Positions 1-12,178 of a stretch of DNA of 12,178 nt are shown one piece after another. The notes under the pieces were generated by a model, which ran no database searches, was not told the DNA's origin, and saw only the letters and a program-made list of their open reading frames with translations. The stretch is from Bacteroidales bacterium (GTDB taxonomy: Bacteria; Bacteroidota; Bacteroidia; Bacteroidales; UBA932), in assembly GCA_017429885.1 (NCBI GenBank), contig JAFROA010000098.1:1-12178 (forward strand), read 5' to 3'. Within the stretch, counting starts at the first letter, position 1. Each line of letters begins with the position of its first letter. The position numbers and the translations under genes were made by a program.

Positions 1-51
1 AGGGACGGGAGGACAGATGCCTCTGTTGAATTGGAAACTCTTTTAAGATAA
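1..51 (+). CDS. Possible 3' end of an upstream gene (partial)
   Basis: Frame 1 is open from the window edge to a TAA at 49-51, one base before the dapF ATG, and would encode 16 residues ending ELETLLR. Frame 2 is also open, to a TAA at 44-46, so the frame is not settled. Frame 1 is preferred because the tight stop-to-start spacing is typical of an operon, like the other junctions in this window. Nothing about function can be said from so short a tail. Confidence 0.35.
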   Translation, partial: RDGRTDASVELETLLR

Positions 52-52
52 G

Positions 53-916
53 ATGTTACAAAAGTTCTTCAAGTATCACGGAGCCGGCAATGACTTCTTG
101 TTGGCGGACAATCGGGAAGGTTATCTCAGCTTGTCCCGGAATCAGATTCGCCATCTTTGCGACCGTCACACTGGTTTCGGCGCTGACGGAGTGATGTTGC
201 TCGAGAAAAGTCTGAAAAAGGACTTCCGGATGGTCTTCTATAATCCTGATGGCAGCGGGGGAATGATGTGTGGCAACGGAGGGCGTTGCATAGTCGCTTT
301 CGCCGCTGATTTGGGAGTCGTCTCCGGTAATTTTCCGGTCGAGTTCGAGGCTCCTGACGGCTTTCACACCGCTGTTATTCTGAGCGAAGCGAAGAATCCC
401 GGAGCGAATGGCGATGCCCGCCAGATACGTTTGAAAATGAAGGAAGTCACTGGGGTTAAGGAATATCCTGACGATAATGCGTTTTTCCTAGACACCGGCA
501 CCCGACATCTTGTCAAGTTTGTCAAGGGGTTGGATGATTATCCCGTCAAGGAGCAAGGGAGAATCCTTCGTCAGGATCCCCGGTTCGCTCCCGAGGGGAC
601 CAACGTCAATTTCGTCGAGCCTGTCATTCTGAGCGAAGCGAAGAATCTTCTTCGAGTACGCACTTTCGAGAAAGGAGTTGAGGATGAGACTTTGGCTTGT
701 GGTACGGGAATTGTTGCAACGGCTATAGCCGCTTCACGCGAAGGAATCCCAGGCAAGACCGCTCCGGACGGGCGTGTCTCTTATGATGTGCGCGCCTCCA
801 TCTCAGATCTGAAGGTGGATTTCATCCCTTCCGGTCAAGGCTCCGGATTCCTGGCGACGGATGTGTGGCTGACTGGACCGGCTGAAATAGTCGGGACTGT
901 TGAGTGTTTTTTATAG
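53..916 (+). CDS. dapF: Diaminopimelate epimerase with two in-frame repeat insertions
   Basis: This cytoplasmic, cofactor-independent enzyme interconverts LL- and meso-diaminopimelate in the lysine and peptidoglycan precursor pathway. Family hallmarks are clear in order: the N-terminal YHGAGNDF, the first catalytic cysteine in MMCGNGGRC (C73), DTGTRH with a retained His (H152), GTNVNF, and the second catalytic cysteine in ETLACGTG (C216). The protein ends with the expected WLTGPAE strand. At 287 residues it is slightly long for the family. The extra length lies largely at two places where the peptide VILSEAKN appears (residues 108-115 and 191-198), each encoded by the same short DNA repeat. 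The usual TGSPH motif reads TGTRH, a mild variation. Both catalytic cysteines and the reading frame are intact, so the enzyme is probably functional despite the insertions. The ATG at 53 directly precedes the conserved N-terminus. Confidence 0.95.
   Translation: MLQKFFKYHGAGNDFLLADNREGYLSLSRNQIRHLCDRHTGFGADGVMLLEKSLKKDFRMVFYNPDGSGGMMCGNGGRCIVAFAADLGVVSGNFPVEFEAPDGFHTAVILSEAKNPGANGDARQIRLKMKEVTGVKEYPDDNAFFLDTGTRHLVKFVKGLDDYPVKEQGRILRQDPRFAPEGTNVNFVEPVILSEAKNLLRVRTFEKGVEDETLACGTGIVATAIAASREGIPGKTAPDGRVSYDVRASISDLKVDFIPSGQGSGFLATDVWLTGPAEIVGTVECFL
372..398 (+). repeat. Dispersed palindrome-like repeat, copy 1, inside dapF
   Basis: A 27-base unit (CTGTTATTCTGAGCG... ending GAAGAATC) matches the unit at 621-647 with a single mismatch. 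Its ends, ATTCT and AGAAT, are inverted repeats of each other, and the middle carries a GCGAA doublet. It is read in frame as VILSEAKN, between the APDG strand and the IRLKM strand of DapF, where family members normally have a short turn. Similar translated repeats (VILSEAKNL) are known from many annotated bacterial proteins, which supports a mobile or amplifying small repeat. Confidence 0.8.
621..647 (+). repeat. Dispersed palindrome-like repeat, copy 2, inside dapF
   Basis: This is the second copy of the 27-base unit, in the same orientation and the same codon phase as copy 1, again giving VILSEAKN. It lies between GTNVNFVE and the conserved VRTFEKGVEDET segment, just before the second catalytic cysteine loop. 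Family members normally have only a few residues here. The shared phase is what would keep the gene open after both insertions. Confidence 0.8.
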
Positions 917-935
917 GATTATCAATGATCAAATT

Positions 936-1691
936 ATGAGAATTTCATTTAGTTTATCCCTTGCCGCTTTGATTGTTTTGGCAGCGGTATCATGTAAGGA
1001 ACCACAGCGTTCAACCGCTAGTTTTGTGCAAGTCACATCGTTCGATATGGATGAGATTTCTGTCGAGACGTATTATCATGACGGCATCTTGTTCGCTCCG
1101 CTGTTGACATGGGACGATGTGTGCTATTACAATTCATCCTCAGATGATCTCAATACTGGCTTCCATGGTGGTTTCAGGGTCTCTGTGCGAAAAGCGGACG
1201 ATGATACCTCCGAGGAGCTGGCCATGGTCACCGCCGCCGACCCAGTGGGAGGAGCGAATGGGAGTAAGGGGTATATGGTTTTCAAACAGACCTCCTCAAT
1301 GCCGGAGACAAGCATTGATTACCGCCTCACCGGTTTTTACACCGCCGCTGTGTCCTCTTACGGATGTGATGTGTGTAATACTTTGTATAATAAACGTTTG
1401 GGCGAAGAAGGCCTTATCTCTCCAGGTGACTATCTCAAAGTCAAAATAGAGTTCTACAAGGGCACAGCTCTTTTGGGCTCAGTTGAGAAGTACCTGATTG
1501 ATTACGCTACCGTGACTGAACCCAAGATGGAGAACGAGTGGGTCGGATGGAAAATGACAAGCGACACAGGGAATTCTTCAGCCGTCTCCGGTTTCGACGC
1601 CGCAAAGATCACTGTCGAGTCCTCCGGAGCCCACATAGACCCGTCGTTCTGCTTGGACAACTACTGTGTCCATATGAACGTGGAGTATTGA
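936..1691 (+). CDS. Small secreted lipoprotein, DUF4465-like
   Basis: The product is a 251-residue predicted lipoprotein. Its signal peptide, MRISFSLSLAALIVLAAVSC, has a lipobox ending at Cys20, so it is probably anchored in an outer membrane leaflet. The ATG at 936 is preferred over an in-frame TTG at 900 because it begins the signal peptide directly and avoids overlapping dapF. The mature part is rich in aromatic and polar residues and predicted beta structure. The GDYLKVKIEFYKG segment, a later GW segment and a C-terminal FCLDN resemble DUF4465 proteins, which are extracellular Bacteroidetes proteins of unknown role. Four cysteines (in two CxxC-like or spaced groups: VCYY, CDVC, and near the C-terminus) could form disulfides. 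It lies 19 bases after dapF and probably shares its transcript. It is convergent with the next gene, with only 5 bases between their stop codons. Confidence 0.7.
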   Translation: MRISFSLSLAALIVLAAVSCKEPQRSTASFVQVTSFDMDEISVETYYHDGILFAPLLTWDDVCYYNSSSDDLNTGFHGGFRVSVRKADDDTSEELAMVTAADPVGGANGSKGYMVFKQTSSMPETSIDYRLTGFYTAAVSSYGCDVCNTLYNKRLGEEGLISPGDYLKVKIEFYKGTALLGSVEKYLIDYATVTEPKMENEWVGWKMTSDTGNSSAVSGFDAAKITVESSGAHIDPSFCLDNYCVHMNVEY

Positions 1692-1696
1692 TTCCT

Positions 1697-3898
1697 TTAC
1701 CACGAGATCTTGACCCGGACGCCATCCGGTTTGTTCACGTGACTTACAAGATATGTGCTTCCGACCTCGTCCCAAAGGGCGGGGTCTATTGTTTCCTCCC
1801 CGTCCACAATGACGCTTGAAGGCTTTTGTGGCAACAGCACCCTGGTGGCGCAGACAGTCTCTGCCGGCCCTTTAGCTGTCCAGGAGAACGCGCGTCCTTT
1901 CTTCTTGGTGTCGTATGCCCTTCCTGCCATGGCTAGGATGGAAGGTGCTTTTGGAGCGTTGTCTATGTTATAAAGGAATCCTTGCCCACCAGGCGTGACA
2001 GTTTTGCTGGTGAGGACAGGGAGGGAAGGGTCGTATAGGTCTATCAGGCGTCCTGACAATACGACGGGCTCATCGCTGACGCTTTCGTCCATCACTGCCA
2101 CTAACTCGTATGGACCTCTCGTCAATCTCAGGTTATTCTTGAATACGAGTTCACCTCCGCTTTCGGAATAAAGTCTGGTGACAGATTCTAAGAATCCTTT
2201 ATCTGAGTCTCCATCCAGGACAAACTCCTTTGGATCCTGCCTTATGATCCTGACCGAACCTGACCCGAAAACATATTCACCCTCCGGTGCTCCCGACTCA
2301 ATTCCCATGAGAGAGAACAAATGGTCTGAAGGGGCGTTGTAGCTATTCCCGCCCGTGTTCCACCATTCCTTCACCTTTTGGAAAGGATCCGTGTCTCTTC
2401 CGCAGTACACGAGTCTTCCACCTTGCCTTACCCATTCGGCTATATGCACATGAGCCTCAGAGTCCATCGGCTTCATGTTGGAGTAGGTCATTACAAGAAC
2501 CTTGACATCCTCGAAAGCTTTCTCATGCCCGGTGTTCTCGATGTGGGTTATACCGATGGGGACACCTCTTTTAAGGAGGGGCATCGCCATTCCGAAGAAG
2601 TCGGCCAAACCAGGATCGTCATATCCTTCGTGAGTAGGGAAACGCTGGAACATCAAGGAGTTGCCCATCAGCACGCTTATTCCTTGACTGCCAGAGACCT
2701 TGTTCTTTGAGACTGGAATACTCTCCAGGCTTCCTGTCATAACCTGCATCATAGTGGAATAGTCTGATGGAATCTTTATTATCTCGTCGCTTCCGGCGCT
2801 TTTCGGATAGAGCCTCCCATAGATTCTCTCCGGCCATGGCATGATCTCATAATCAGCTATTTCCGGATGGAGAAGCTGGGCGGTGAAAGTGGCGTGATAA
2901 TTCTTCTTGTAGTCATTCCAGTCACGTGTGCCGTCCTCGATCGGGTCCGTGAGGAACCACACCCGGCGCCCTGTCGGGGCTGTCATTGAGGCCATGCAGG
3001 TATATTCAAGATACGCTGTCTCAAATGTACGCTCCTTGTACACCCCGTTCAGGTGGTTGGGTACTCTTGAGGTCCCGGTCCAGACTTGCGCTATGTAACC
3101 GTCTACCCCCTTCATTGAGGCCAAGCTGGCCTCAGGACTCACTATCTCCCACTGTGAATAGTTAATCAGCGAGTGGGTCGGAACGTAGCACTTCACGTCC
3201 ATGCCTTTGCTCCTGCCGTATTCCTTGGCATAGGTCGTGACATCGTCCAGTGCCCTGTAGTAGAGGTGGTACTTTAGTTTGTTGGAGAGATATGTCGCCT
3301 CTGGCGATTCGTCCTGAGGCCTCCAAGGCTCCCCGTAATAATCCATCCACTCTCGCTTGAAAGCCTCACTGTAGCCTCCCCGGTTCCAGAATTCCGGCTC
3401 CTCAAAATACAGGGACTCGATTCCGGCATCGATGACCCTTTTGACCTGGCTCTCTTTGAAGTATTCCAGGAAACGCGTGGTCGGGACTATGTAGGGGACC
3501 ATCTTCCCGTGCCAGATTGTGTCTCCGTCCGCTTGCATTTGGCCTTCGTCGAGGTGAGTGGCACCGTCCCACTTGCCAGTGAAATAGTCTACGTAGCCTC
3601 CCCAGGCGATTCCGGTCATGAAATCAACCCGGTAGCCTCTCTCCTTCCAGGATCTGATCCGGTTCTCGACAGCTGAGACACCTTCATGGCCGTCCTCTTC
3701 AAGGCTTTTCCCCGCACCATAGACCATCACTGCGTCCGCCCTGGTGTCGATGGCCGGGCTCCATGCCTTTGAGGTTTGGAAAGTGGTTTTAACCCTGTCT
3801 TTACTGACATTCCCTACTCGAGAAGCGCACGAAAACAGAAAAACCAAGGTCGTGAGTGTCATCACGGCCTTGGCTTCCCAAGTGTGTGTCATTTTCAT
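1697..3898 (-). CDS. Large lipoprotein resembling glycoside hydrolases (TIM barrel plus GATase-like domain)
   Basis: This 733-residue protein has a signal peptide with a lipobox ending at Cys24 (LVFLFSC), so it should be lipidated and envelope-anchored. Residues about 50-365 look like a TIM-barrel carbohydrate-active domain. A strand ends in YFEEPEFW (164-171), whose glutamates are candidate acid/base residues, and aromatic-rich YIAQVW and VWFLTDP strands follow. Residues about 405-510 (VLVMTYS, then GGRLVYCG) resemble the Rossmann-like GATase/beta-galactosidase trimerisation domain found after GH42-type barrels. The remaining C-terminus is predicted beta-rich. I cannot assign a GH family. 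It starts at ATG 3898, sharing one base with the TAA of the aldolase gene upstream (TAATG), which implies translational coupling. It may therefore release the sugar the cytoplasmic enzymes consume. Another in-frame ATG lies at 3892. Confidence 0.65.
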   Translation of the reverse strand: MKMTHTWEAKAVMTLTTLVFLFSCASRVGNVSKDRVKTTFQTSKAWSPAIDTRADAVMVYGAGKSLEEDGHEGVSAVENRIRSWKERGYRVDFMTGIAWGGYVDYFTGKWDGATHLDEGQMQADGDTIWHGKMVPYIVPTTRFLEYFKESQVKRVIDAGIESLYFEEPEFWNRGGYSEAFKREWMDYYGEPWRPQDESPEATYLSNKLKYHLYYRALDDVTTYAKEYGRSKGMDVKCYVPTHSLINYSQWEIVSPEASLASMKGVDGYIAQVWTGTSRVPNHLNGVYKERTFETAYLEYTCMASMTAPTGRRVWFLTDPIEDGTRDWNDYKKNYHATFTAQLLHPEIADYEIMPWPERIYGRLYPKSAGSDEIIKIPSDYSTMMQVMTGSLESIPVSKNKVSGSQGISVLMGNSLMFQRFPTHEGYDDPGLADFFGMAMPLLKRGVPIGITHIENTGHEKAFEDVKVLVMTYSNMKPMDSEAHVHIAEWVRQGGRLVYCGRDTDPFQKVKEWWNTGGNSYNAPSDHLFSLMGIESGAPEGEYVFGSGSVRIIRQDPKEFVLDGDSDKGFLESVTRLYSESGGELVFKNNLRLTRGPYELVAVMDESVSDEPVVLSGRLIDLYDPSLPVLTSKTVTPGGQGFLYNIDNAPKAPSILAMAGRAYDTKKKGRAFSWTAKGPAETVCATRVLLPQKPSSVIVDGEETIDPALWDEVGSTYLVSHVNKPDGVRVKISW

Positions 3899-5205
3899 TA
3901 TTCCCCGACGTGGAAAGCGACCCTGAGGTCCTCAATCTCGGCATCGGTGATAGGCTTTAATGAGCCCAACGGAGCGGCGAGAATCAGGGATCTGGCGCTG
4001 AAATCAGCGACCTCGAGACGGTCGAAAGTGTTAATCAGTTTGTCACCGGTGACCACGTCCGAGTCATTCTCCAGCATCACGAAAGGCCGGTGGCGGAACT
4101 CGTCGGCGAGGTCAGAGAGACGCTCGTCGTACTGGCTTCCGAACGGGAAGGTTGGGATATCCTGGAGGAATATCCAGCTCTCAGGAATCGTCCGTACATC
4201 AAAGTTAACTCCTGTGGTGCAGAACCCCATCAGGGCGGGGGACTGGGTCAGGATGATGGAGTTGACTTTGGGATTGCGGCGATATATCTCGTAGTGGAGA
4301 GCCACGGAACGGCTCGCCATTTTTCCCGCCTCTACCATCCCGTCTTTGACCTGCACGATGTCCTCTGGATCAATGTCCCAACGCTGGACGTTGGAAGGGG
4401 TGATCAGGAAGTCGTTGCCCTTCCACCTGACTGATGCGGTACCGTATGAGCTGCACATCAGACCCTGTGAGCAAGCTCTGCGAACAATCTGGCAGATCTC
4501 TGTCCTGATGGCACGCTCCTCGGATGGATGGGTAACATTCATGAAGTGCTCGAACGGGGTGTTTACCGCCATTTCGTGCTTGTTTATCTGCTCTTCTGTC
4601 AGGTATTTAGGCTCACCGATGGTCTTGGCGTTGAGGATGGTGCGGGCGCATAGCTCCAGAGTCTCGAAACGCTGGTAAGCGTCGGCTATATCCTCTCCGA
4701 ACAATACCACACCGTGGTTTTCCATTATGACGGCCTTATAGTCGGGATTTTTCTTGAACTCCTCCACTATCTTTTTGCCGAGCAACTCGCTACCCGGAAG
4801 TGCATATTCAGCGAAACCTACGGGTCCGCAGACAGCTCTAGCCTGAGGGATTATGCTGGTGTCGGGAATCTGATGGACCACGCTGAAAGTGACAAGTCCC
4901 GGAGGATGCGCATGGATCACTGAGTGGGCCTTCGGATTCATCTTGTAGATGGCCTTGTGGAAGGGATATTCCGAAGACGGCCTGTGAGGTCCTACTATAG
5001 TCCCGTCCGCCTTGACACACATTATGTCAGACGGAGTCAAGGAACCCTTATCTATTCCCGCAGGGGTGATCCACATGTCTCCGTTGCTGTCCATGATGGA
5101 CAAGTTTCCACCGGAAGTGGTTGTCATACCGCTGCGATAGATCCTGCCGATGATGATAGCGATCTGCTCGGCGGGATGCATCAATTTGATATCCAGTTGT
5201 TTCAT
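3898..5205 (-). CDS. Tandem class II aldolase/adducin protein, second half degenerate
   Basis: The 435-residue protein consists of two class II aldolase/adducin domains in tandem. The first (about residues 5-200) has the full set: phosphate-binding SGGNLS (31-36), SSEYPFH with the candidate catalytic Glu79, zinc ligands in HAHPP (H98, H100) and ENHG (H164). The second (about 225-425) keeps the fold-defining segments, for example ITPSNVQRWDIDPEDIV and YEIYRRNPKVNS. However, HAHPP is replaced by TQSPA, ENHG by ENDS and GGN by SYG, so it should not bind zinc. It could be a structural or regulatory half, or form composite interfaces. An ATG at 5205 is chosen, two bases past the stop of the preceding gene. 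A TTG at 5214 would add three residues. Its place after the aldolase/dehydrogenase suggests the same sugar-phosphate pathway, but its substrate is not evident. Confidence 0.85.
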   Translation of the reverse strand: MKQLDIKLMHPAEQIAIIIGRIYRSGMTTTSGGNLSIMDSNGDMWITPAGIDKGSLTPSDIMCVKADGTIVGPHRPSSEYPFHKAIYKMNPKAHSVIHAHPPGLVTFSVVHQIPDTSIIPQARAVCGPVGFAEYALPGSELLGKKIVEEFKKNPDYKAVIMENHGVVLFGEDIADAYQRFETLELCARTILNAKTIGEPKYLTEEQINKHEMAVNTPFEHFMNVTHPSEERAIRTEICQIVRRACSQGLMCSSYGTASVRWKGNDFLITPSNVQRWDIDPEDIVQVKDGMVEAGKMASRSVALHYEIYRRNPKVNSIILTQSPALMGFCTTGVNFDVRTIPESWIFLQDIPTFPFGSQYDERLSDLADEFRHRPFVMLENDSDVVTGDKLINTFDRLEVADFSARSLILAAPLGSLKPITDAEIEDLRVAFHVGE

Positions 5206-5206
5206 A

Positions 5207-7165
5207 TTAAGCAAGCATTACCTGGCCACCGGTCACGGGAATGGCCTGTCCGGTCTCGCCAGTCTGTTCAATGGCATATAAGATGGCCTTGCATACATCC
5301 TCGGGATTGCATCCCTTGCGCATAGGCACCTTTGAGAGGTAATAATCCTTCACGTCCTGCACCGTCTTGGCTCCGGGGGCCTTTCCGGCCTTGAGATATT
5401 GGATGAACAAGCCCTTCTCGGGGTCGCTCCAAAGCGGTCCGTCGTAGTAGTTTCCAGGACAAATGGAGTTGACCTTGATCCTGAACGGGGCCAGCTCAAG
5501 GGCGAAGGACTGGGTCAGTCCGATGCCGCCGAATTTGCCTCCGGCGTAAGCGAAATTAGCCTTGCTGCCGACCAGGCCGCTCTTGGAGTTGATCTGGACA
5601 ATGTCAGCGAAATACTCGGGGTCATTGGCGGTCTCGATCTTCATGACGTGGCTGGCCACCTTGGCGCAGAAGAAATATGCCTTATAATTGATGTTGGTGA
5701 CGAACTCGAAATTCTCGGGGGTCATCGCCTCGAGGTCTCCGGCGCGCACGACACCGGCGTTGCTGACGAAGGCGTCAAGTGCTCCGAAATTGACGATGGT
5801 CTCTTTAATGAGGTTATGAAGGCTGTCCATATCGGCAACGTTGGTCTTCACGAATATCGCCTTGTTCGCTTTGGCGATCTCATTGAAGGAGGCTGCTGTC
5901 TTCTGGCCGGTCACCTCGTTGAGGTCGGCGACCACGATGTTCGCTCCCTGCTTGATCAATTCACGGGCGATACCCTCGCCGAAGCCTTGGGCGGCTCCTG
6001 TGACGATGATGGTTTTGCCCTCGACCCTGCCTTTGGAGGCGGTGGCGGCCACTTTGCGGCGGTAGTTCTCGACCTCCCAGTTGTCGATGAAGGAAATCTG
6101 ACGGGCTGTCATGGGGTGCTCCCCACCGAAGAAGGAAGCGTACCATGCGACCTTCATGGAGTCCGTGAACACTTCGGTGACGGTCTGGGCCTCCTTGGCG
6201 TTGGCTCCTGCGGCTACAAGTCCTATTCCTTTGATGAGCAACACTTTCGGGGTGTGGCCTCGCTTCTCGACATAAGCCTCGATCTTCTTCTCGGCTTGCT
6301 TCACGAGATCCTCGGGACCCTTGTGGTCAATGTAGATGAATTCGCTCTTGCAGTAGACGATGCCGTCGGGAGTGAAAGGCTTCATCACAGGCGCGGCTTC
6401 GTCCTTTCCGCCGATAAACTTGCTGATGAGGGCGTTATTGGTGATTTTCAGGGTCTTAAGTCCCCGGCCTCCACGGCTTAGTATCGTCCTTATGGCGGGG
6501 ATGGTCTCGCTGACACAGTCGCAAACAGCAGCCTCGCCCTCGGGAACGGGCTTGACCAACTTCTCGAGGGTGGCCATGACTCTCGCGTATGTCGCCTTGA
6601 TCTCATCGGTGGTCTCGCCACCCACGAATATGCCGTGGTTCTGGAGGAATATCACCTTAGGCTCGACACAACGCTCCTTACGATACTCTTTGATCTTGTC
6701 ATAGACCTTCTTGAAAAGGGTGTAACCGGGATCGGTGTAAGGGACGTACAAAGCGTCCGGGAAGAGCTCAGCGCATTTCGCCGCAGCGTCTTTTGAGCAC
6801 ATGAGTCCGTTCACCAGGGTGGGGTGGAGGTGGACCACATACGCTGACTCCATGCAGTTATGGAGGGATGTCTCGACAGAGGGGCGCCTGCCTTTCGTGA
6901 GGCATGCGGTGGCGAGGTCGTTCTTGACCTGCTCCTCCCTGAGGGTCGTGTCAGAGCTGTACACCTTCTCTCCCATTGGATTCAGCAAAGCCCTGTCCAG
7001 CACGGCGAAACCTTCTTCAGTGATTGTGGCCAGGGCATGACCGCTGGCCTTGACCCAAAGTTTGTCCGCTGTCTTGAAAGAGGTGTTTCCGCCTCCGGCG
7101 ATCACATACTTGTCGTCGCTACCATACTCGCGCGACACTTCAACCAATTTCTCGATCTCAGACAT
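5207..7165 (-). CDS. Bifunctional class II aldolase / short-chain dehydrogenase (rhamnulose-1-phosphate aldolase/lactaldehyde dehydrogenase type)
   Basis: This 652-residue fusion matches the architecture of the YuxG/RhaEW-type enzymes. In characterised members the aldolase part cleaves L-rhamnulose 1-phosphate to dihydroxyacetone phosphate and L-lactaldehyde, and the dehydrogenase part oxidises lactaldehyde to lactate with NAD. The aldolase part (about 1-370) shows GGGN (24-27), VETSLH with Glu98, zinc ligands in VHLHP (H112, H114) and QNHG (H177). The dehydrogenase part (about 380-652) shows the nucleotide-binding TGAAQGFG (389-396), NAG (469-471), a serine at about 527 and the YxxxK pair Y540/K544. 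All key residues are present and the length is normal for the family. It lies 4 bases after the PHP gene. L-fuculose or another 1-phosphate could be the real substrate, since no isomerase or kinase is visible nearby to fix it. Confidence 0.9.
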   Translation of the reverse strand: MSEIEKLVEVSREYGSDDKYVIAGGGNTSFKTADKLWVKASGHALATITEEGFAVLDRALLNPMGEKVYSSDTTLREEQVKNDLATACLTKGRRPSVETSLHNCMESAYVVHLHPTLVNGLMCSKDAAAKCAELFPDALYVPYTDPGYTLFKKVYDKIKEYRKERCVEPKVIFLQNHGIFVGGETTDEIKATYARVMATLEKLVKPVPEGEAAVCDCVSETIPAIRTILSRGGRGLKTLKITNNALISKFIGGKDEAAPVMKPFTPDGIVYCKSEFIYIDHKGPEDLVKQAEKKIEAYVEKRGHTPKVLLIKGIGLVAAGANAKEAQTVTEVFTDSMKVAWYASFFGGEHPMTARQISFIDNWEVENYRRKVAATASKGRVEGKTIIVTGAAQGFGEGIARELIKQGANIVVADLNEVTGQKTAASFNEIAKANKAIFVKTNVADMDSLHNLIKETIVNFGALDAFVSNAGVVRAGDLEAMTPENFEFVTNINYKAYFFCAKVASHVMKIETANDPEYFADIVQINSKSGLVGSKANFAYAGGKFGGIGLTQSFALELAPFRIKVNSICPGNYYDGPLWSDPEKGLFIQYLKAGKAPGAKTVQDVKDYYLSKVPMRKGCNPEDVCKAILYAIEQTGETGQAIPVTGGQVMLA

Positions 7166-7169
7166 AATC

Positions 7170-8279
7170 TTATTTGTTTAAGGTTTTCATTATAATCTCT
7201 TCCCCGGCGTCGACGGAGTCCAGTCCAGCCTGATGGGCGACAATCTTGCACGCTCCACGGAAGTTGGTGATTCTCAGCTTCTCGGAAAGTCCCTCGGGGT
7301 GGTCGCTACTGCGCAACTTGATGGATTCCATAGCCGGGGTGTTATGCTCGGAACCGAAAGTGACTGTGAATCCCTCGTCCTGGAGGTAGTCGGAATATTC
7401 CTCGAGCACCTTTGTCGTGTTCCTTGTGGTGATGAACTCCACTGAATTGAAACCACGTTTCTTCAAAGTGTCGGCTGCCTTTTGGAGGTCTCCCTCGAAG
7501 TCCGTGAACTCTCCTTTGGCGTTGTCGGCCAGGAAAGGATAAGTGGGGATACCACCGGCAGCTCTGATGATTTTGCAGACTGTATCCATCGGGAGGAAAG
7601 CCTTTGGATCCTCGGGGACGAAGGCGGCTCCTCCAGCTTTGAGAAGTTTGCTCCTAATCTCATTCTCGACAGCCGCCACATTATCCTGGGCTGATTTGAG
7701 TGGCGCGCCACCGAATATTCTCTCGTAAGCGGCGGCTCTTTCCGCACCCTCCTTGAATCTGGCCTCGATGGCCATTCTCAGGGCCTTGGCGAGGTGACGC
7801 TCTCTGACAGAACCTTTCGTCAATTCGTCGACAATAGTCTTGAAATCAAGGTTGAAACCCGCTCCTACAGCGTCCAGGTGGGAATTGAGTTTTTCGCACA
7901 TTCTTTCGACTTGGGCATTGGACTCCTCCCTGACTTCCGATAAAAGCCACGCTTCCCTTCCCTTTAGGGTAGTCGGATAGGCGAGTCCTTTTCCGCTGAT
8001 GTATGTTCGTCCAGGGTTATTGGGGTCATTGACCCTGAGTCCGGCGGCCTGGTCCTCGCTGTTCAGGGATATGAATTCTATTCCCATGATCGGGTAGAGG
8101 TGCCTTTTATCGCATCCGTCTTTCCAGTCAGCGTAGCCTTTCATGGAATAGAAGTCGTTGATTCCCACCACTCCAACTCCTTCCTTGACGGCCATGTCCA
8201 AGGCTTGGTCGATCCCGCTGAAGGCGCTGAACGAATAGGGGGTGTGCATGTGGGCGTTTACGTCGATGATTGTGCTCAT
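7170..8279 (-). CDS. PHP-domain metal-dependent hydrolase-like protein
   Basis: The 369-residue protein starts with a PHP-type motif, VNAHMHTPYSF (H10, H12), followed by GINDFYS (40-45), GIEF with Glu68, ERHLAKAL (H162) and GSEHNTP (H312). These correspond to the ordered metal-binding motifs of PHP phosphoesterases. Some are altered: the usual TDH motif is NDF and the usual GSDxH motif is GSEH. Its metal set is therefore incomplete or unusual. The middle of the protein (about 105-235) is a helical insertion. PHP proteins usually remove phosphate from small metabolites or nucleotides. In this operon, between rimM and the aldolase/dehydrogenase, a sugar-phosphate substrate is a reasonable inference but unproven. 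The start ATG lies 18 bases after the rimM stop. It lacks polymerase or histidinol-phosphatase neighbours that would suggest those roles. Confidence 0.75.
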   Translation of the reverse strand: MSTIIDVNAHMHTPYSFSAFSGIDQALDMAVKEGVGVVGINDFYSMKGYADWKDGCDKRHLYPIMGIEFISLNSEDQAAGLRVNDPNNPGRTYISGKGLAYPTTLKGREAWLLSEVREESNAQVERMCEKLNSHLDAVGAGFNLDFKTIVDELTKGSVRERHLAKALRMAIEARFKEGAERAAAYERIFGGAPLKSAQDNVAAVENEIRSKLLKAGGAAFVPEDPKAFLPMDTVCKIIRAAGGIPTYPFLADNAKGEFTDFEGDLQKAADTLKKRGFNSVEFITTRNTTKVLEEYSDYLQDEGFTVTFGSEHNTPAMESIKLRSSDHPEGLSEKLRITNFRGACKIVAHQAGLDSVDAGEEIIMKTLNK

Positions 8280-8297
8280 GTGTTATTGTTTTTGTGA

Positions 8298-8822
8298 TCA
8301 GAACAAGCCTTCCGGCAAATCCAGGGACAAGGTTTTCGCATCCTCATCGATATCTATGATCAGATCATCGTGAAGAGGGATCATGACTGTCTCTTCCCCG
8401 TGTTTGACATATAAACAAGGATTGCCTGGAATGGGCTCATAATCAATTATTTCTCCAATAAATAGGCCTTCCTGGTCATTGAGAGACCAGCCTATCAGGT
8501 CCTCTACGGATAATTCTTCTTCCTCGTCTGACGCGCCAATTATGGAATCTTTCTTGGCGAGAATGTCCTTTCCCACGAGTTCTTCAGCGTCGGTCAGGTC
8601 ATTCACTCCGGTGAGATGTAGAAGAGCTTTTGAGGTCCCTTTCTCTTTATATGATTCAATAAAAAAGGGAACCGGAAGCCCATCAAACATGATGAACACC
8701 GGTTCCTTGAGATTCAAGTCTCCGATACCTGTCTCATGAAAACCCGCGAGGATTTCCCCTTCGGTACCGTAGGACTTCAGTACCCGGGCTATCCGCAGAA
8801 AATCTGAAGGAGCCCCGGACAT
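8298..8822 (-). CDS. rimM: Ribosome maturation factor RimM
   Basis: RimM binds ribosomal protein S19 and assists maturation of the 30S subunit head, acting in the cytoplasm. The 174-residue product has the expected two domains. The N-terminal RimM domain opens with IARVLKSYGTEGEI, the family's glycine-rich start, and includes LTGVNDLTDAEELVGK. The C-terminal PRC-barrel (about 100-174) includes DLIGWSL, IGEIIDYEPIPGNPCLYV and VMIPLHDDLIIDID. Length is normal. It begins 3 bases after the rpsP stop, the classical rpsP-rimM pairing, so both are almost certainly cotranscribed. The four genes that follow it are not part of the usual set. Confidence 0.93.
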   Translation of the reverse strand: MSGAPSDFLRIARVLKSYGTEGEILAGFHETGIGDLNLKEPVFIMFDGLPVPFFIESYKEKGTSKALLHLTGVNDLTDAEELVGKDILAKKDSIIGASDEEEELSVEDLIGWSLNDQEGLFIGEIIDYEPIPGNPCLYVKHGEETVMIPLHDDLIIDIDEDAKTLSLDLPEGLF

Positions 8823-8825
8823 TTT

Positions 8826-9380
8826 TTAAGCCTCAGCAGTCGCTTCCTCAGCGGCCTCGCCAGCTTCCTCGGCGGCCTTGGCGGCAGCCTCTTCAGCGGC
8901 TTTGCGTTGAGCCTCAGCGAGTTCCTCTGCCTTCTTGGCGAGAGCGGCAGCCCTCTCATCGTTGACCTTCTTCTCAGCGGCGATAGAAGCCTTGACCTTC
9001 TCGGCGGCTTCCTTCACGAGACCGTCTTTCTTGGCCTGGATCTTGGCATCCCTCTGAGCTTTCCAAGCGTTCCATTTCTGGTCGGCCTGCTCCTGGGTGA
9101 TGGCGCCTTTCTCAACGCCCCTCTGGAGGTGCTTGCGAAGAAGAACACCCTCATAGGACAGGATCCTGCGGGTGACAAGTGTGGGCTGGGCACCTACGTT
9201 GAGCCAAGCCAGAGCCCTCTCACCGTCAAGAATGATGGTGGCGGGGTTGGTGTTGGGGTTGTAGGAGCCGAGTTGCTCGATGAAACGTCCGTCGCGCGGC
9301 GAGCGGGAATCGGCCACGACAATGTGGAAGAATGCGAAATTCTTCTTTCCGTGGCGCTGCAGTCTGATTTTAACAGCCAT
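8826..9380 (-). CDS. rpsP: 30S ribosomal protein S16 with long C-terminal extension
   Basis: S16 is an essential assembly protein of the small ribosomal subunit. Residues 1-80 carry the whole S16 domain: [40 protein letters not shown], and the LNVGAQPT and LLRK segments. The product is 184 residues, roughly twice the length of E. coli S16. The extra part (about 100-184) is highly charged and Ala/Glu/Lys rich, predicted to be a long helix or coiled coil, as is common in Bacteroidetes S16. The ATG at 9380 begins MAVKIRL, the conserved N-terminus. The frame stays open upstream to 9560 but crosses the promoter and overlaps the tRNA, so that extension is not coding. It heads the six-gene minus-strand cluster. 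Confidence 0.95.
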
Positions 9381-9420
9381 TGTGAATCTGTTTTTAAATA
9401 AATAATTATTAAACGTGTAA

Positions 9421-9437
9421 CCCCCAACTCGTGGGAG
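9421..9437 (-). promoter_or_regulatory. Small hairpin in the rpsP leader
   Basis: On the minus strand, CTCCCA and TGGGGG can pair (six pairs, one G-T) around a five-base CGAGT loop. The hairpin lies in the presumed 5' leader of rpsP, about 40 bases before its ATG and just after the predicted transcription start. It could affect mRNA stability or S16 autoregulation, but no known motif was recognised. Confidence 0.3.
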
Positions 9438-9441
9438 CTCG

Positions 9442-9449
9442 CAAAGATA
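9442..9449 (-). promoter_or_regulatory. Predicted rpsP -7 element
   Basis: The minus strand reads TATCTTTG, an exact match to the Bacteroidetes -7 consensus TAnnTTTG, about 62 bases upstream of the rpsP ATG. A good -33 TTG box is not obvious at the expected spacing, so the promoter is called on the -7 element alone. It would drive the rpsP-rimM-catabolic cluster. Confidence 0.5.
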
Positions 9450-9476
9450 CGAATAATTATGAAATCGAGAAAAAAT

Positions 9477-9507
9477 TTTGGTATTTACAGAATAATGTAT
9501 AATTTTG
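9477..9507 (+). promoter_or_regulatory. Predicted tRNA-Leu promoter (Bacteroidetes type)
   Basis: TTTG at 9477-9480 and TAATTTTG at 9500-9507 match the Bacteroidetes -33 (TTTG) and -7 (TAnnTTTG) elements, separated by 19 bases. The tRNA begins 28 bases after the -7 box. A short inverted repeat (TCCCA at 9511-9515, TGGGA at 9522-9526) lies in the leader. Confidence 0.65.
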
Positions 9508-9535
9508 CAGTCCCAATCCAATGGGACACATACCT

Positions 9536-9619
9536 GCGGTAGTGGTGAAATGGTATACACGCTACTTTGAGGGGGTAGTGGGCGCTACGCCCGTGTGAGT
9601 TCGACTCTCACCTACCGCA
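9536..9619 (+). tRNA. tRNA-Leu (anticodon GAG)
   Basis: A full class II cloverleaf can be folded by eye. The acceptor stem is GCGGTAG with CTACCGC (seven pairs, 9536-9542 and 9612-9618). The D-arm contains TGGTATA. The anticodon stem CTACT/GGTAG encloses the loop TTGAGGG, with anticodon GAG at 9569-9571. A long variable arm (GGGCG-CTA-CGCCC) marks a leucine-type tRNA, and the T-arm is GTGAG-TTCGACT-CTCAC. The discriminator base is A at 9619. The next bases are CCG, so the complete CCA end is not encoded and must be added after transcription. GAG decodes CUU and CUC leucine codons. Confidence 0.95.
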
Positions 9620-9626
9620 CCGAAAC

Positions 9627-9660
9627 CGGCTTCAGAGTGATTCTGAGGCCGATTTTCTTT
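9627..9660 (+). terminator. Rho-independent terminator after tRNA-Leu
   Basis: A ten-pair stem (CGGCTTCAGA with TCTGAGGCCG, one G-T pair) closes a five-base loop and is followed by a T-rich run starting at 9653. It lies eight bases after the tRNA's discriminator base. Read from the minus strand the T-run is poor, so it is weaker against transcription coming from the gene ending at 9685. Confidence 0.85.
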
Positions 9661-9684: not shown

Positions 9685-10422
9685 TTATCCGTTAATATTC
9701 CTCCATATTGTGACAGCCCCTTCTGATTTTGGATAATAATCGCTTATTCTGGCAATCATAGCGTACCCTGGCCACTCAAAATCAACATAGTCAGAGCTTC
9801 CAATGCCTCCATAGAAGAAATACTCCGGCATTCTGTCGCCCATTCTAACCGTCTTAGCTAAAGGAGCATTGAAATCTTTGAAGTCTGTCCAGTTTAATCC
9901 AAACCCCGTACCAGGTTGAATAACGGCCATTGCTTTTGGCATGATCTTATTGGCGAGATAAAGCCCAGAGTAAGCGGCGGCCCCTTCAGCGCCAAGATAC
10001 AAAAGAGAGAATCTTTCCGGTCCGTGCTCTTCTCCGAATTCAATGTCCCGCTCAAATACCGCCCCCTTTGCAAAAGGTTTCCAGTTCTGCCTATACCTCA
10101 GATACTCTTTGGGATCAATACCATCAGGCATCTGAAGTGGTTTATCCGCCCCTATGTCTGAGGGACGCAGTGTCCTGGCAACAAGTAGGCTATATCCCCT
10201 GAAGCCATCAAGGTACTCTTCCAACCTATCTTCTCCTGTAGCGTAATCCGCATAGATATAACTGCAAATTCCCATCTCATCGAAGTGCTCATTACAGTAT
10301 TTTACTACACCACCATCAATATCACACGCAGGATAGTAGAGGGAGTCCACCAAAAGATCATTTAGTGGAAGATTTCCAAACTCTATATCATTGATAGAGA
10401 GAGCTAATAAATGCTCAATCAT
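9685..10422 (-). CDS. Uncharacterised conserved-looking protein coupled to the DUF2779 gene
   Basis: This 245-residue soluble protein has no signal peptide or membrane segment. The ATG at 10422 overlaps the TGA of the DUF2779 gene as ATGA, so it is translationally coupled and this start is preferred over 10497, which would add 25 residues read from inside the neighbour. Motif-like blocks are DSLYYPACDIDGGVVKY (26-42), SYIYADY (54-60), RFSLLYLGAEGAAAY (137-151), AVIQPGTGFGLNWTDF (166-181) and YFFYGG (201-206). I recall similar blocks in widespread hypothetical proteins but cannot name a family. Gly-rich GAEGAAAY and QPGTGFGLNWTDF could form a ligand or nucleotide-binding pocket, which is only inference. 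Base composition is more AT-rich than the genes to the left. It ends just before the TTTTTGGCGA repeats. Confidence 0.75.
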   Translation of the reverse strand: MIEHLLALSINDIEFGNLPLNDLLVDSLYYPACDIDGGVVKYCNEHFDEMGICSYIYADYATGEDRLEEYLDGFRGYSLLVARTLRPSDIGADKPLQMPDGIDPKEYLRYRQNWKPFAKGAVFERDIEFGEEHGPERFSLLYLGAEGAAAYSGLYLANKIMPKAMAVIQPGTGFGLNWTDFKDFNAPLAKTVRMGDRMPEYFFYGGIGSSDYVDFEWPGYAMIARISDYYPKSEGAVTIWRNING

Positions 10423-12178
10423 TGCATTATTCGGTTTTTGACCGTATCGTAAAAATACTCCCAGATGAAAACCATTGCCAAAGTGTCTAACTCGCAATAT
10501 CGAAGTAATGAAGATTTGAGGATATCCGTTGCCATCATGTCAGTAAACTGGAGTTTTGAGTACGCAGCTAATGCTGCGCCGCCATTTGCTACGGTATCGC
10601 CAAGTTCTTCTTTATAGCTATTCCAATCCTTCTCAGTAAACCCAGAAGCTTCAAGCACCGTCTTTTCAATTTCGTCAAGAAAAAGATAAGGGTTATCTAC
10701 GGAGGCTATCCCGTCATTCTTTTTTATCCATTGAATGGGCATGGAGGGTGGGTAATTCAGGCTTTTTATTTGGGAACCATAAATCGGCTTGGAGTACTTT
10801 CTTTGTAAGAAACTGCTTGCGTTCAAAACTGCAGGAAGTACAACCTTGATAGACGTCCGGCCCTTCATGTATTTTGGGTACAGGAAGCAATCCTTCACAA
10901 TTGCCTCCAAATCTAGCATATCCCTCTCTCCCTTCATTTTGACAGTTTCCTCACGCTTGGAGTGTGTGATGGAGTCGATAAAAGCAATCAAATCGTCCTT
11001 ATCTCTTTCTGTAGAACCAATCAATTGTTCACGGATATCGCGAAGAATCGTGTTCTCATGGCTGGCATATCTGAATATCGGCCCGTCATCCATAGTCAGT
11101 TGTTTTCTAAGTTCACGCACAAAAGCAAAATTGGGGAATGTGTGCTTTTTTGTATTAATAAACTGCCCAGCGTGTTCAATGGAATATGTTCCATCAAAAT
11201 TGAATGTGACAGCATGATGTGAAAACTGGAAGGCGACAGACTCGTAAGGCCTCATCCCCTTATAGAAAGGCAGGGCGGTGGCAGATGTCTCAAAGTCGAT
11301 GAAATGAAGCTTTTTGCCTTTCCATTCGGACATATACTTTGCTAGAGCATCCTTGTTCAGATATAGCTTATTGTCTACGATAGCATCCCCAAATTCACTC
11401 AATATCTTCGAATTCTGGTTCTCAATGGCGTATAGCAGCTTTCTGCGCACTGGTATCTCTGCAGTTTTCGGTTTCAAGTCGACCAAGTCTATCTGAGAAA
11501 GAAAGTATTTCTTATTCTCTATCAGTTCGTCAACTCTTTTTGAAAAACCTGACATACTGAAATCGCGAAGCCATGGCCTTTCAAAATCTTCGTCATTAAG
11601 ACCAGCTCTTTCTTTCCAACACTCTTTGAAGCCGTCCAGTTTCCCTTTATCCTTTATGCTATCAGTAGTATAGAAGGGACAATTGAAACACGAGTGAGAC
11701 AGTCTTGACTCCAATTTGTGATGCTCACAATAAGCTTCTGCAAGTCGATTGATCTCTGAAATGTCTACATCGCAAAGATGATCTACATCAAAAGCTGTCA
11801 GGATGTGTGGCACATCAGCCAACATCTCTGCTCCTGGTCGAATGATGATTTTGTCGCCGGCTTGTTTTGTATTAATCTCGAAGAACTGATTCATTCCGTC
11901 AACAGGAGCCTGAATGGTTTTATCGGCCATCATCAAATATGCGTGGACGACAAAAGATGCTTCGGGGAATAATCCCTTCAGGGCGTTTACAACTACATAT
12001 TTCTGAAAGGCAACGTCTTTTAGGTATTCAAGAACACCTTGGATTTTGATGTCCTTATCTGTAATCTTTTCGCCTCCTTCTTTCAAAAAAGACTTTGCCT
12101 TGACTTCAATAAGATTGATGCAGTTCCCCTTCTTCTCGATTATATCGGCGAGAACATAACATTTCCCGAATCGGAAAG
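10419..12178 (-). CDS. DUF2779 protein: PD-(D/E)xK nuclease-like plus DnaQ/RNase H-like domains (5' end outside window)
   Basis: The gene runs off the right edge. 585 residues are visible (numbered from the first full codon). A TTG at 12086 would be a false start, because the frame stays open to the edge and the extra 30 residues are conserved-looking. They read FRFGKCYVLADIIEKKG then INLIEVKAKS, where D11 and E24-V-K26 fit the Cas4/RecB-like PD-(D/E)xK core. A CFNCPF pair (163-166) and a later ECW (185-187) could be part of an iron-sulfur cluster. The DUF2779 C-terminal part begins at LHFIDFETSATALPFYKGMRPYES with D294 and E296. It continues with YASHEN (370-375), DMLDLE, GRTSIKVVLPAV and YCELDTLAM with D564, the order expected of a DEDD (DnaQ-like) exonuclease fold. 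The product is probably a cytoplasmic nuclease acting on DNA or RNA. The downstream gene overlaps it by ATGA. No other system genes are visible here. Confidence 0.85.
   Translation of the reverse strand, partial: FRFGKCYVLADIIEKKGNCINLIEVKAKSFLKEGGEKITDKDIKIQGVLEYLKDVAFQKYVVVNALKGLFPEASFVVHAYLMMADKTIQAPVDGMNQFFEINTKQAGDKIIIRPGAEMLADVPHILTAFDVDHLCDVDISEINRLAEAYCEHHKLESRLSHSCFNCPFYTTDSIKDKGKLDGFKECWKERAGLNDEDFERPWLRDFSMSGFSKRVDELIENKKYFLSQIDLVDLKPKTAEIPVRRKLLYAIENQNSKILSEFGDAIVDNKLYLNKDALAKYMSEWKGKKLHFIDFETSATALPFYKGMRPYESVAFQFSHHAVTFNFDGTYSIEHAGQFINTKKHTFPNFAFVRELRKQLTMDDGPIFRYASHENTILRDIREQLIGSTERDKDDLIAFIDSITHSKREETVKMKGERDMLDLEAIVKDCFLYPKYMKGRTSIKVVLPAVLNASSFLQRKYSKPIYGSQIKSLNYPPSMPIQWIKKNDGIASVDNPYLFLDEIEKTVLEASGFTEKDWNSYKEELGDTVANGGAALAAYSKLQFTDMMATDILKSSLLRYCELDTLAMVFIWEYFYDTVKNRIMQ

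Follow-up and report, generated by a model that had tools for sequence, protein, structure and literature searches.

A DUF2779 nuclease gene coupled to a gene of an undescribed protein family in an accessory segment beside tRNA-Leu of a Bacteroidales genome

We analysed a stretch of 12,178 nucleotides (nt), hereafter the window, which is the entire contig C41 of a Bacteroidales assembly that totals 2.24 Mb and is 68% complete. Its right end holds two overlapping minus-strand genes: one for a nuclease of the DUF2779 family and, downstream of it, one for a 245-residue protein that we call the partner. The features of this end of the window are as follows.

9536..9621, plus strand: tRNA-Leu (GAG), called by ARAGORN; marks the edge of the accessory segment
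9663..9684, no strand: tandem 11-base repeat, TTTTTGGCGAG/TTTTTGGCGAC; lies past the tRNA terminator and abuts the stop codon of the partner gene
9685..10422, minus strand: partner gene, 245 residues; undescribed family with a predicted Rossmann-like (loosely methyltransferase-like) fold
10419..10422, minus strand (TCAT on the plus strand): ATGA start/stop overlap of the DUF2779 and partner genes, read from the sequence
10419..12176, minus strand: DUF2779 gene, matching PF11074; 585 of 684 residues present, the 5' part being lost at the contig end

An earlier note, made from the letters of this DNA, had described the two genes as a translationally coupled pair beside a tRNA gene, in DNA more AT-rich than the left part of the window. 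The sequence bears this out: both open reading frames (ORFs) and their ATGA overlap are present, the pair adjoins the tRNA gene, and the G+C content is 0.424 in 9685-12178 versus 0.526 in 1-9535. The interval that the note gave for the two-gene unit, 10419-12178, contains the DUF2779 gene; the partner gene lies outside it. A gap of 63 nt separates the partner gene from the tRNA gene, and the 3' ends of the two face each other. Among 200 loci, the 22-mer of the tandem repeat was found only in the window's own loci, and the repeat is a possible junction remnant.

The S16 protein was searched for in 71 genomes of the genus, of which G017 (99%) and G042 (93%) came closest. DNA identity with G017 runs over 9503-9631, ending ten bases past the tRNA gene, and identity with G042 ends at 9626; the stretch up to 9679 instead resembles a third genome, G044 (87.7% over 155 bases). 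The tRNA gene is followed in G017 by a gene that its sequence marks as OmpA-like and in G042 by a series of other genes, after which both rejoin at a shared gene. Because identity with the two closest relatives stops at the tRNA gene and other genes follow it there, the segment is accessory and starts at the tRNA 3' end. The possibility that the pair belongs to the core genes of this site was accordingly rejected, and accessory status at a tRNA 3' flank is supported. The segment may have been inserted by an integrase; none was recognised among the ORFs of the window, in which no search aimed at integrases was made.

The window's DUF2779 protein matches PF11074 at 67.5 bits (cut-off 23.3). It lacks its first 99 residues at the contig end; a full-length form of 684 residues, P0121, encoded on a 28.9-kb contig, is 99.8% identical to it over the 585 shared residues. 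The protein comprises an N-terminal PD-(D/E)XK nuclease region of the Cas4/RecB type, a cysteine cluster and a C-terminal DEDDy domain of the 3'-5' exonuclease type. In an alignment of 45 DUF2779 sequences, with columns numbered on P0121, three groups of residues are invariant or nearly so: D110, E123, K125 and Q157 of the PD-(D/E)XK region; D393, E395, D521, Y659 and D663, a pattern that we take to be of the DEDDy class; and C23, C262, C265 and C285, presumably a Cas4/AddB-like cysteine set that may bind an Fe-S cluster. All are present in the window protein, except C23, which falls outside the contig but is present in P0121. The earlier note had described a PD-(D/E)xK-like N-terminus and a DnaQ/RNase H-like C-terminus; judged by these intact motifs the label "dual nuclease" is correct, and it was already known. 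A survey of RNase H-like proteins (PMC3985635) lists DUF2779 as family F.17, among presumed 3'-5' exonucleases, and records its DUF83-like PD-(D/E)XK region. A sequence search of solved structures gave no match for DUF2779 up to E = 1.

DUF2779 is a large family (one search yielded 5,339 proteins at E <= 0.001), with members in mobile DNA (7 plasmid records and 8 viral-contig loci). In a phylum sample of 296 genomes, 43 were positive, at 49 places. We took 29 of these (L172-L200), which encode long forms, and left out 20 (the window's own, 17 others that are mostly open frames of ~490-525 residues, and 2 below the cut-off); with four neighbourhoods from close relatives (L109-L112), the set came to 33. 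A single fixed gene context recurs in 13 of the 33 (L180, L183, L185, L189 and L191-L199), with CNNM/CorC-type, MurB-type and M48-peptidase genes as identified in L180. All 13 of these core proteins have lost D110, E123 and K125 and kept the four cysteines and the DEDDy residues, whereas the other 28 full-length proteins compared, and the window's own, keep every motif residue except for a change of D521 in L029. WYL genes follow the same division, occurring in 7 of the 20 non-core neighbourhoods versus none of the 13 core ones. The window's DUF2779 protein belongs to the accessory lineage. A core lineage without the PD-(D/E)XK motif and an accessory one with it allow the functions of the two nuclease modules to be told apart, even if the defence reading discussed below is wrong.

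Up to E = 1, the partner, for which the earlier note could assign no function, matches nothing in Pfam, NCBIfam, PADLOC or PHROG, and a sequence search of solved structures returned one chance match (E 1.9). Its structure is confidently predicted as a Rossmann-like fold, with a pLDDT (predicted local distance difference test) score of 90.6. It represents an undescribed, patchy, cross-phylum family; of 398 genomes from the window's taxonomic family, 7 have a member, the window's own genome among them. Carriage by phages or plasmids was rejected, since tblastn matched none of 50,697 phage and 72,556 plasmid records; one distant relative lies in a viral contig. Apparent large serine recombinases and DUF2924 genes, identified from Pfam counts and sequence reading, occur near the partner gene at L032:3507-6690 and L041:7347-10648, which suggests carriage by mobile elements at those two loci.

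Several members of the partner family are joined to other domains. P0243 is fused to a GNAT acetyltransferase, and a GNAT ORF overlaps the partner ORF at L016:8237-9480 (by Pfam) and L020:4361-5393 (by clustering). Sel1 repeats are fused to the partner domain at L013:8867-10738, and the domain is tandemly duplicated at L022:8623-10119, as in P0241. A macro-domain ORF overlaps the partner ORF at L026:9409-10732 (by Pfam), and one of the same cluster lies close by at L024:2193-3879.

How regularly the two families meet was judged from 38 genome loci of the partner family, in stretches of 5 to 21 kb. DUF2779 genes, all above the PF11074 cut-off, occur at seven of them (L003, L006, L007, L008, L010, L029 and L036), six on the partner's strand and with 0 to 3 intervening genes; apart from the window, L036 is the only locus where the two genes are directly adjacent, with a gap of 38 bases. 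Random placement would yield 0.025 such loci, on a null that ignores the clustering of accessory genes and is therefore too easy to beat. None of 20 control tRNA-Leu/rpsP loci of the window's genus, in two of which no tRNA was found, holds a DUF2779 gene. Conversely, within the stretches covered DUF2779 is missing from 31 of the 38 partner loci, and none of the 33 DUF2779 neighbourhoods contains the partner. The association is real but loose, with no obligate pair, and the conserved, dedicated nuclease/partner pair that had been envisaged was rejected as a general rule. The earlier note had named two observations as damaging to its proposal: that the partner family occurs mostly without DUF2779, which is largely what these counts say, and that the pair is core in all relatives, which the site comparison contradicts.

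Other genes recur beside the partner as well. Across the 38 loci we counted WYL genes at 12 and genes for OGG-like proteins (PF21790) at 6, against 1 and 0 at the 20 control loci; since the profiles for WYL and OGG derive from these same loci, the counts lean upwards. A cluster of 546-600-residue proteins occurs at 5 of 38. We also assembled a neighbour set of 149 proteins of at least 110 residues from 40 loci (L003-L041 and L128), taking at most two neighbours per side, excluding DUF2779 genes by design and swapping one L128 gene for the WYL gene known at that locus. Pfam identified in it 7 WYL (one hand-picked), 6 OGG-like, 3 PARG, 2 macro and 2 NADAR proteins. L003 and L006 each carry, on a single strand, a WYL-PARG fusion, the partner, an OGG-like gene and DUF2779, in L006 with other genes interspersed.

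The most telling link is the sharing of C-terminal modules between OGG-like and partner proteins. BLAST aligned one such module, X, between the OGG-like protein of L004 and partner protein P0036 (48% over 104 columns), and a second, Y, between the OGG-like proteins of L014 and L006 and partner protein P0006 (E 5e-14 and 5e-6). A profile of module X, which has no Pfam match up to E = 0.05, found 25 of 161 partner-family proteins, the copies in L003 and L006, and the L004 OGG-like protein. The module Y profile found five OGG-like proteins and P0006, of which P0006 and four of the five were its seeds; the only independent match is an OGG-like protein of the window's own genome, on contig C205. 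Among the other ORFs searched, neither module was found, except in an ORF of 103 residues at the margin of L125, which we regard as the truncated end of the L003/G441 gene. Co-occurrence points the same way: of the 398 genomes, 16 have OGG, 7 the partner and 3 both (hypergeometric P = 0.0017), these three being the only strong partner matches and two of them having raised the idea.

The same genome carries related genes on other contigs. Two OGG-like genes lie on C205, the only contig with PF21790 matches.

L140:1404-2549 (G000 contig C205): second OGG-like gene
L140:4997-7255 (G000 contig C205): OGG-like gene fused to a radical SAM/SPASM enzyme

Several genes of C205 are related to ones that lie near the partner in L006 (76%), L005 (71%) and L128 (41-44%), and the contig has genes that look, from their sequences, like HepT/MntA and AbiE toxin-antitoxin pairs. 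In the same genome C372 carries a single WYL gene and C179 a single PARG gene, and the only PF03167 match is an ordinary-length uracil-DNA glycosylase (UDG) gene on C318, though divergent members could escape this search. The window itself has no PF21790, PF03167, WYL or PARG match. Fourteen control genomes gave counts of 0 for PARG, 0 for OGG, 7 for WYL and 13 for UDG. None of the OGG-like, WYL and PARG genes shares a contig with the pair; these results cut both ways and leave the odds between the readings as they were.

We tentatively favour a reading, at somewhat less than an even chance, in which the pair is accessory cargo with a part in defence by base processing and DNA degradation. From the motifs, neighbours, shared modules and accessory status described above, we infer a substrate, an order of steps and a role in defence as follows. 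The pair would have been acquired horizontally, as cargo at the tRNA-Leu 3' flank, and its two proteins, produced by coupled translation, would act on the same foreign DNA. The partner may act on, or recognise, a modified base or nucleotide. At richer loci a WYL regulator would control it together with a PARG-type ADP-ribose hydrolase and an OGG-like DNA glycosylase that generates abasic sites, and the dual nuclease would remove the damaged DNA. By analogy with the Brig3-BapA system, and not as a member of it, the partner would process or read the modified base, the OGG-like enzyme excise it and DUF2779 degrade the DNA. Of this proposed module the window holds the nuclease and the partner only. 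If the reading is right, one pathway would join the orphan nuclease family DUF2779 to an unnamed cross-phylum family, and the C-terminal modules shared by partner and glycosylase would offer a handle on what the system recognises.

Several results weigh against this proposal. The partner loci mostly lack DUF2779, the DUF2779 neighbourhoods lack the partner, most partner loci hold neither DUF2779 nor OGG, and some partner neighbours look ordinary (sulfatase, DUF2064). PADLOC assigned 99 families to the 149 partner neighbours versus 73 to 134 control proteins (random ORFs from the 20 tRNA-Leu/rpsP stretches), which is not clearly higher; the PADLOC counts do not separate these neighbours from the control and lend no support to the enrichment near known defence genes for which the earlier note had proposed a test. 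In the window, PADLOC matched nothing in the partner and only PbeB in the DUF2779 protein (E 0.014 over 22 residues). The contigs with the genome's WYL and PARG genes (5.9 and 6.1 kb) carry ordinary-looking genes and no other part of the module, and these two genes were rejected as near neighbours of the pair.

A serious contender, itself short of an even chance, is that the two are unrelated accessory genes sharing an island and a promoter: DUF2779 alone would be a WYL-regulated nuclease, the partner separate cargo, and the ATGA overlap a matter of gene packing. The two families do stand mostly apart, with direct adjacency in the window and L036 alone; the contexts of the partner are mixed; and the seven non-core DUF2779 neighbourhoods with WYL genes have no partner. 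This explanation must nevertheless accommodate the seven DUF2779 loci, six of them same-strand, in excess of random placement (a null that ignores island clustering), and the rank of DUF2779 as second only to WYL among recurrent neighbours, by a small lead over the OGG-like genes (6) and the 546-600-residue cluster (5).

A more ambitious form of the favoured defence reading, which we consider unlikely, makes the partner the shared core enzyme of a modular base-excision defence, with the window as its minimal two-gene form and the other parts elsewhere in the genome. The partner would modify or unmask modified bases in invading DNA; the OGG-like glycosylase, borrowing the same C-terminal recognition module, would excise them; a PARG-type hydrolase and a WYL regulator would control the response; and DUF2779 would destroy the abasic DNA.

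It is improbable that the pair is a toxin-antitoxin-like or ADP-ribose-signalling system, in which the partner would make or sense ADP-ribose-type marks and its PARG, macro or NADAR-like neighbours would remove them. Such neighbours exist: PARG in L003 and L006 (Pfam) and, by clustering with these, in L013 and L128; the macro domains of L026 and L024; and DUF6939 in L003 and L128, with a weak NADAR-DarT1 match in L128. The window's genome, too, has its one PARG gene. However, most loci have no hydrolase of this sort, the window gives no PARG match, and no ADP-ribosyltransferase fold appears among the 50 matches listed in each structure search with the partner. Quite improbable as well is a restriction-modification-like arrangement, with the partner as a methyltransferase marking host DNA and the dual nuclease destroying unmarked DNA: 43 of the 50 structural neighbours listed by VIA are Rossmann methyltransferases, judged from titles (some, such as TrmB and METTL1, being names that we take to denote methyltransferases), and conserved partner loops follow predicted strands 1, 2, 4 and 5, probable cofactor-binding places in that fold, but fold scores and methyltransferase matches are weak, Pfam and NCBIfam give no S-adenosylmethionine methyltransferase match, and the alignment consensus, inspected by eye, has no DPPY/NPPY-type motif.

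Among known systems, the F.17 entry for DUF2779 (PMC3985635) agrees with the window's nuclease in its DUF83-like PD-(D/E)XK region and RNase H-like exonuclease domain, and no difference from it was found in the nuclease itself; its coupling to the 245-residue family is the new element. In the literature searched, the papers that name DUF2779 do not concern phage defence, judged by titles and the opening lines of abstracts, and none names DUF6939 or PF21790. With Cas4 and Cas4-like nucleases (PMC5704561) the window protein shares the PD-(D/E)XK motif and three of the four invariant cysteines, the fourth being seen in P0121, and WYL regulators are reported in that paper near UvrD-Cas4-like fusions; DUF2779 differs in that its nuclease is joined to a DEDDy domain rather than to Cas1 or a helicase. 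BrxR-family WYL repressors have been linked to phage-defence islands (PMC9122601), which recalls the WYL regulators beside the partner and DUF2779 families in relatives, although the window has no WYL match.

In Brig3-BapA base-excision defence (PMC13160076), an accessory enzyme unmasks a hypermodified base, which a glycosylase then excises, and an adjoining gene for a predicted ADP-ribosyl glycohydrolase was found dispensable by the authors; a homologue of Brig1 is described in comparable surroundings, near an ADP-ribosyl glycohydrolase (PMC11078745). Related Bacteroidales loci resemble these systems in combining an accessory protein with a DNA glycosylase and a nearby ADP-ribose hydrolase. 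Homology of the partner to BapA was set aside: BapA is described with two beta-barrels, which sets it apart from the Rossmann-like model of the partner. A PF03167 search, which divergent members could escape, found no uracil-DNA-glycosylase-superfamily enzyme of the Brig type in the locus, and the glycosylases of the related loci are instead OGG-like PF21790 proteins. If the base-excision idea is true, these proteins are candidates for base-excision immunity beyond the uracil-DNA-glycosylase superfamily.
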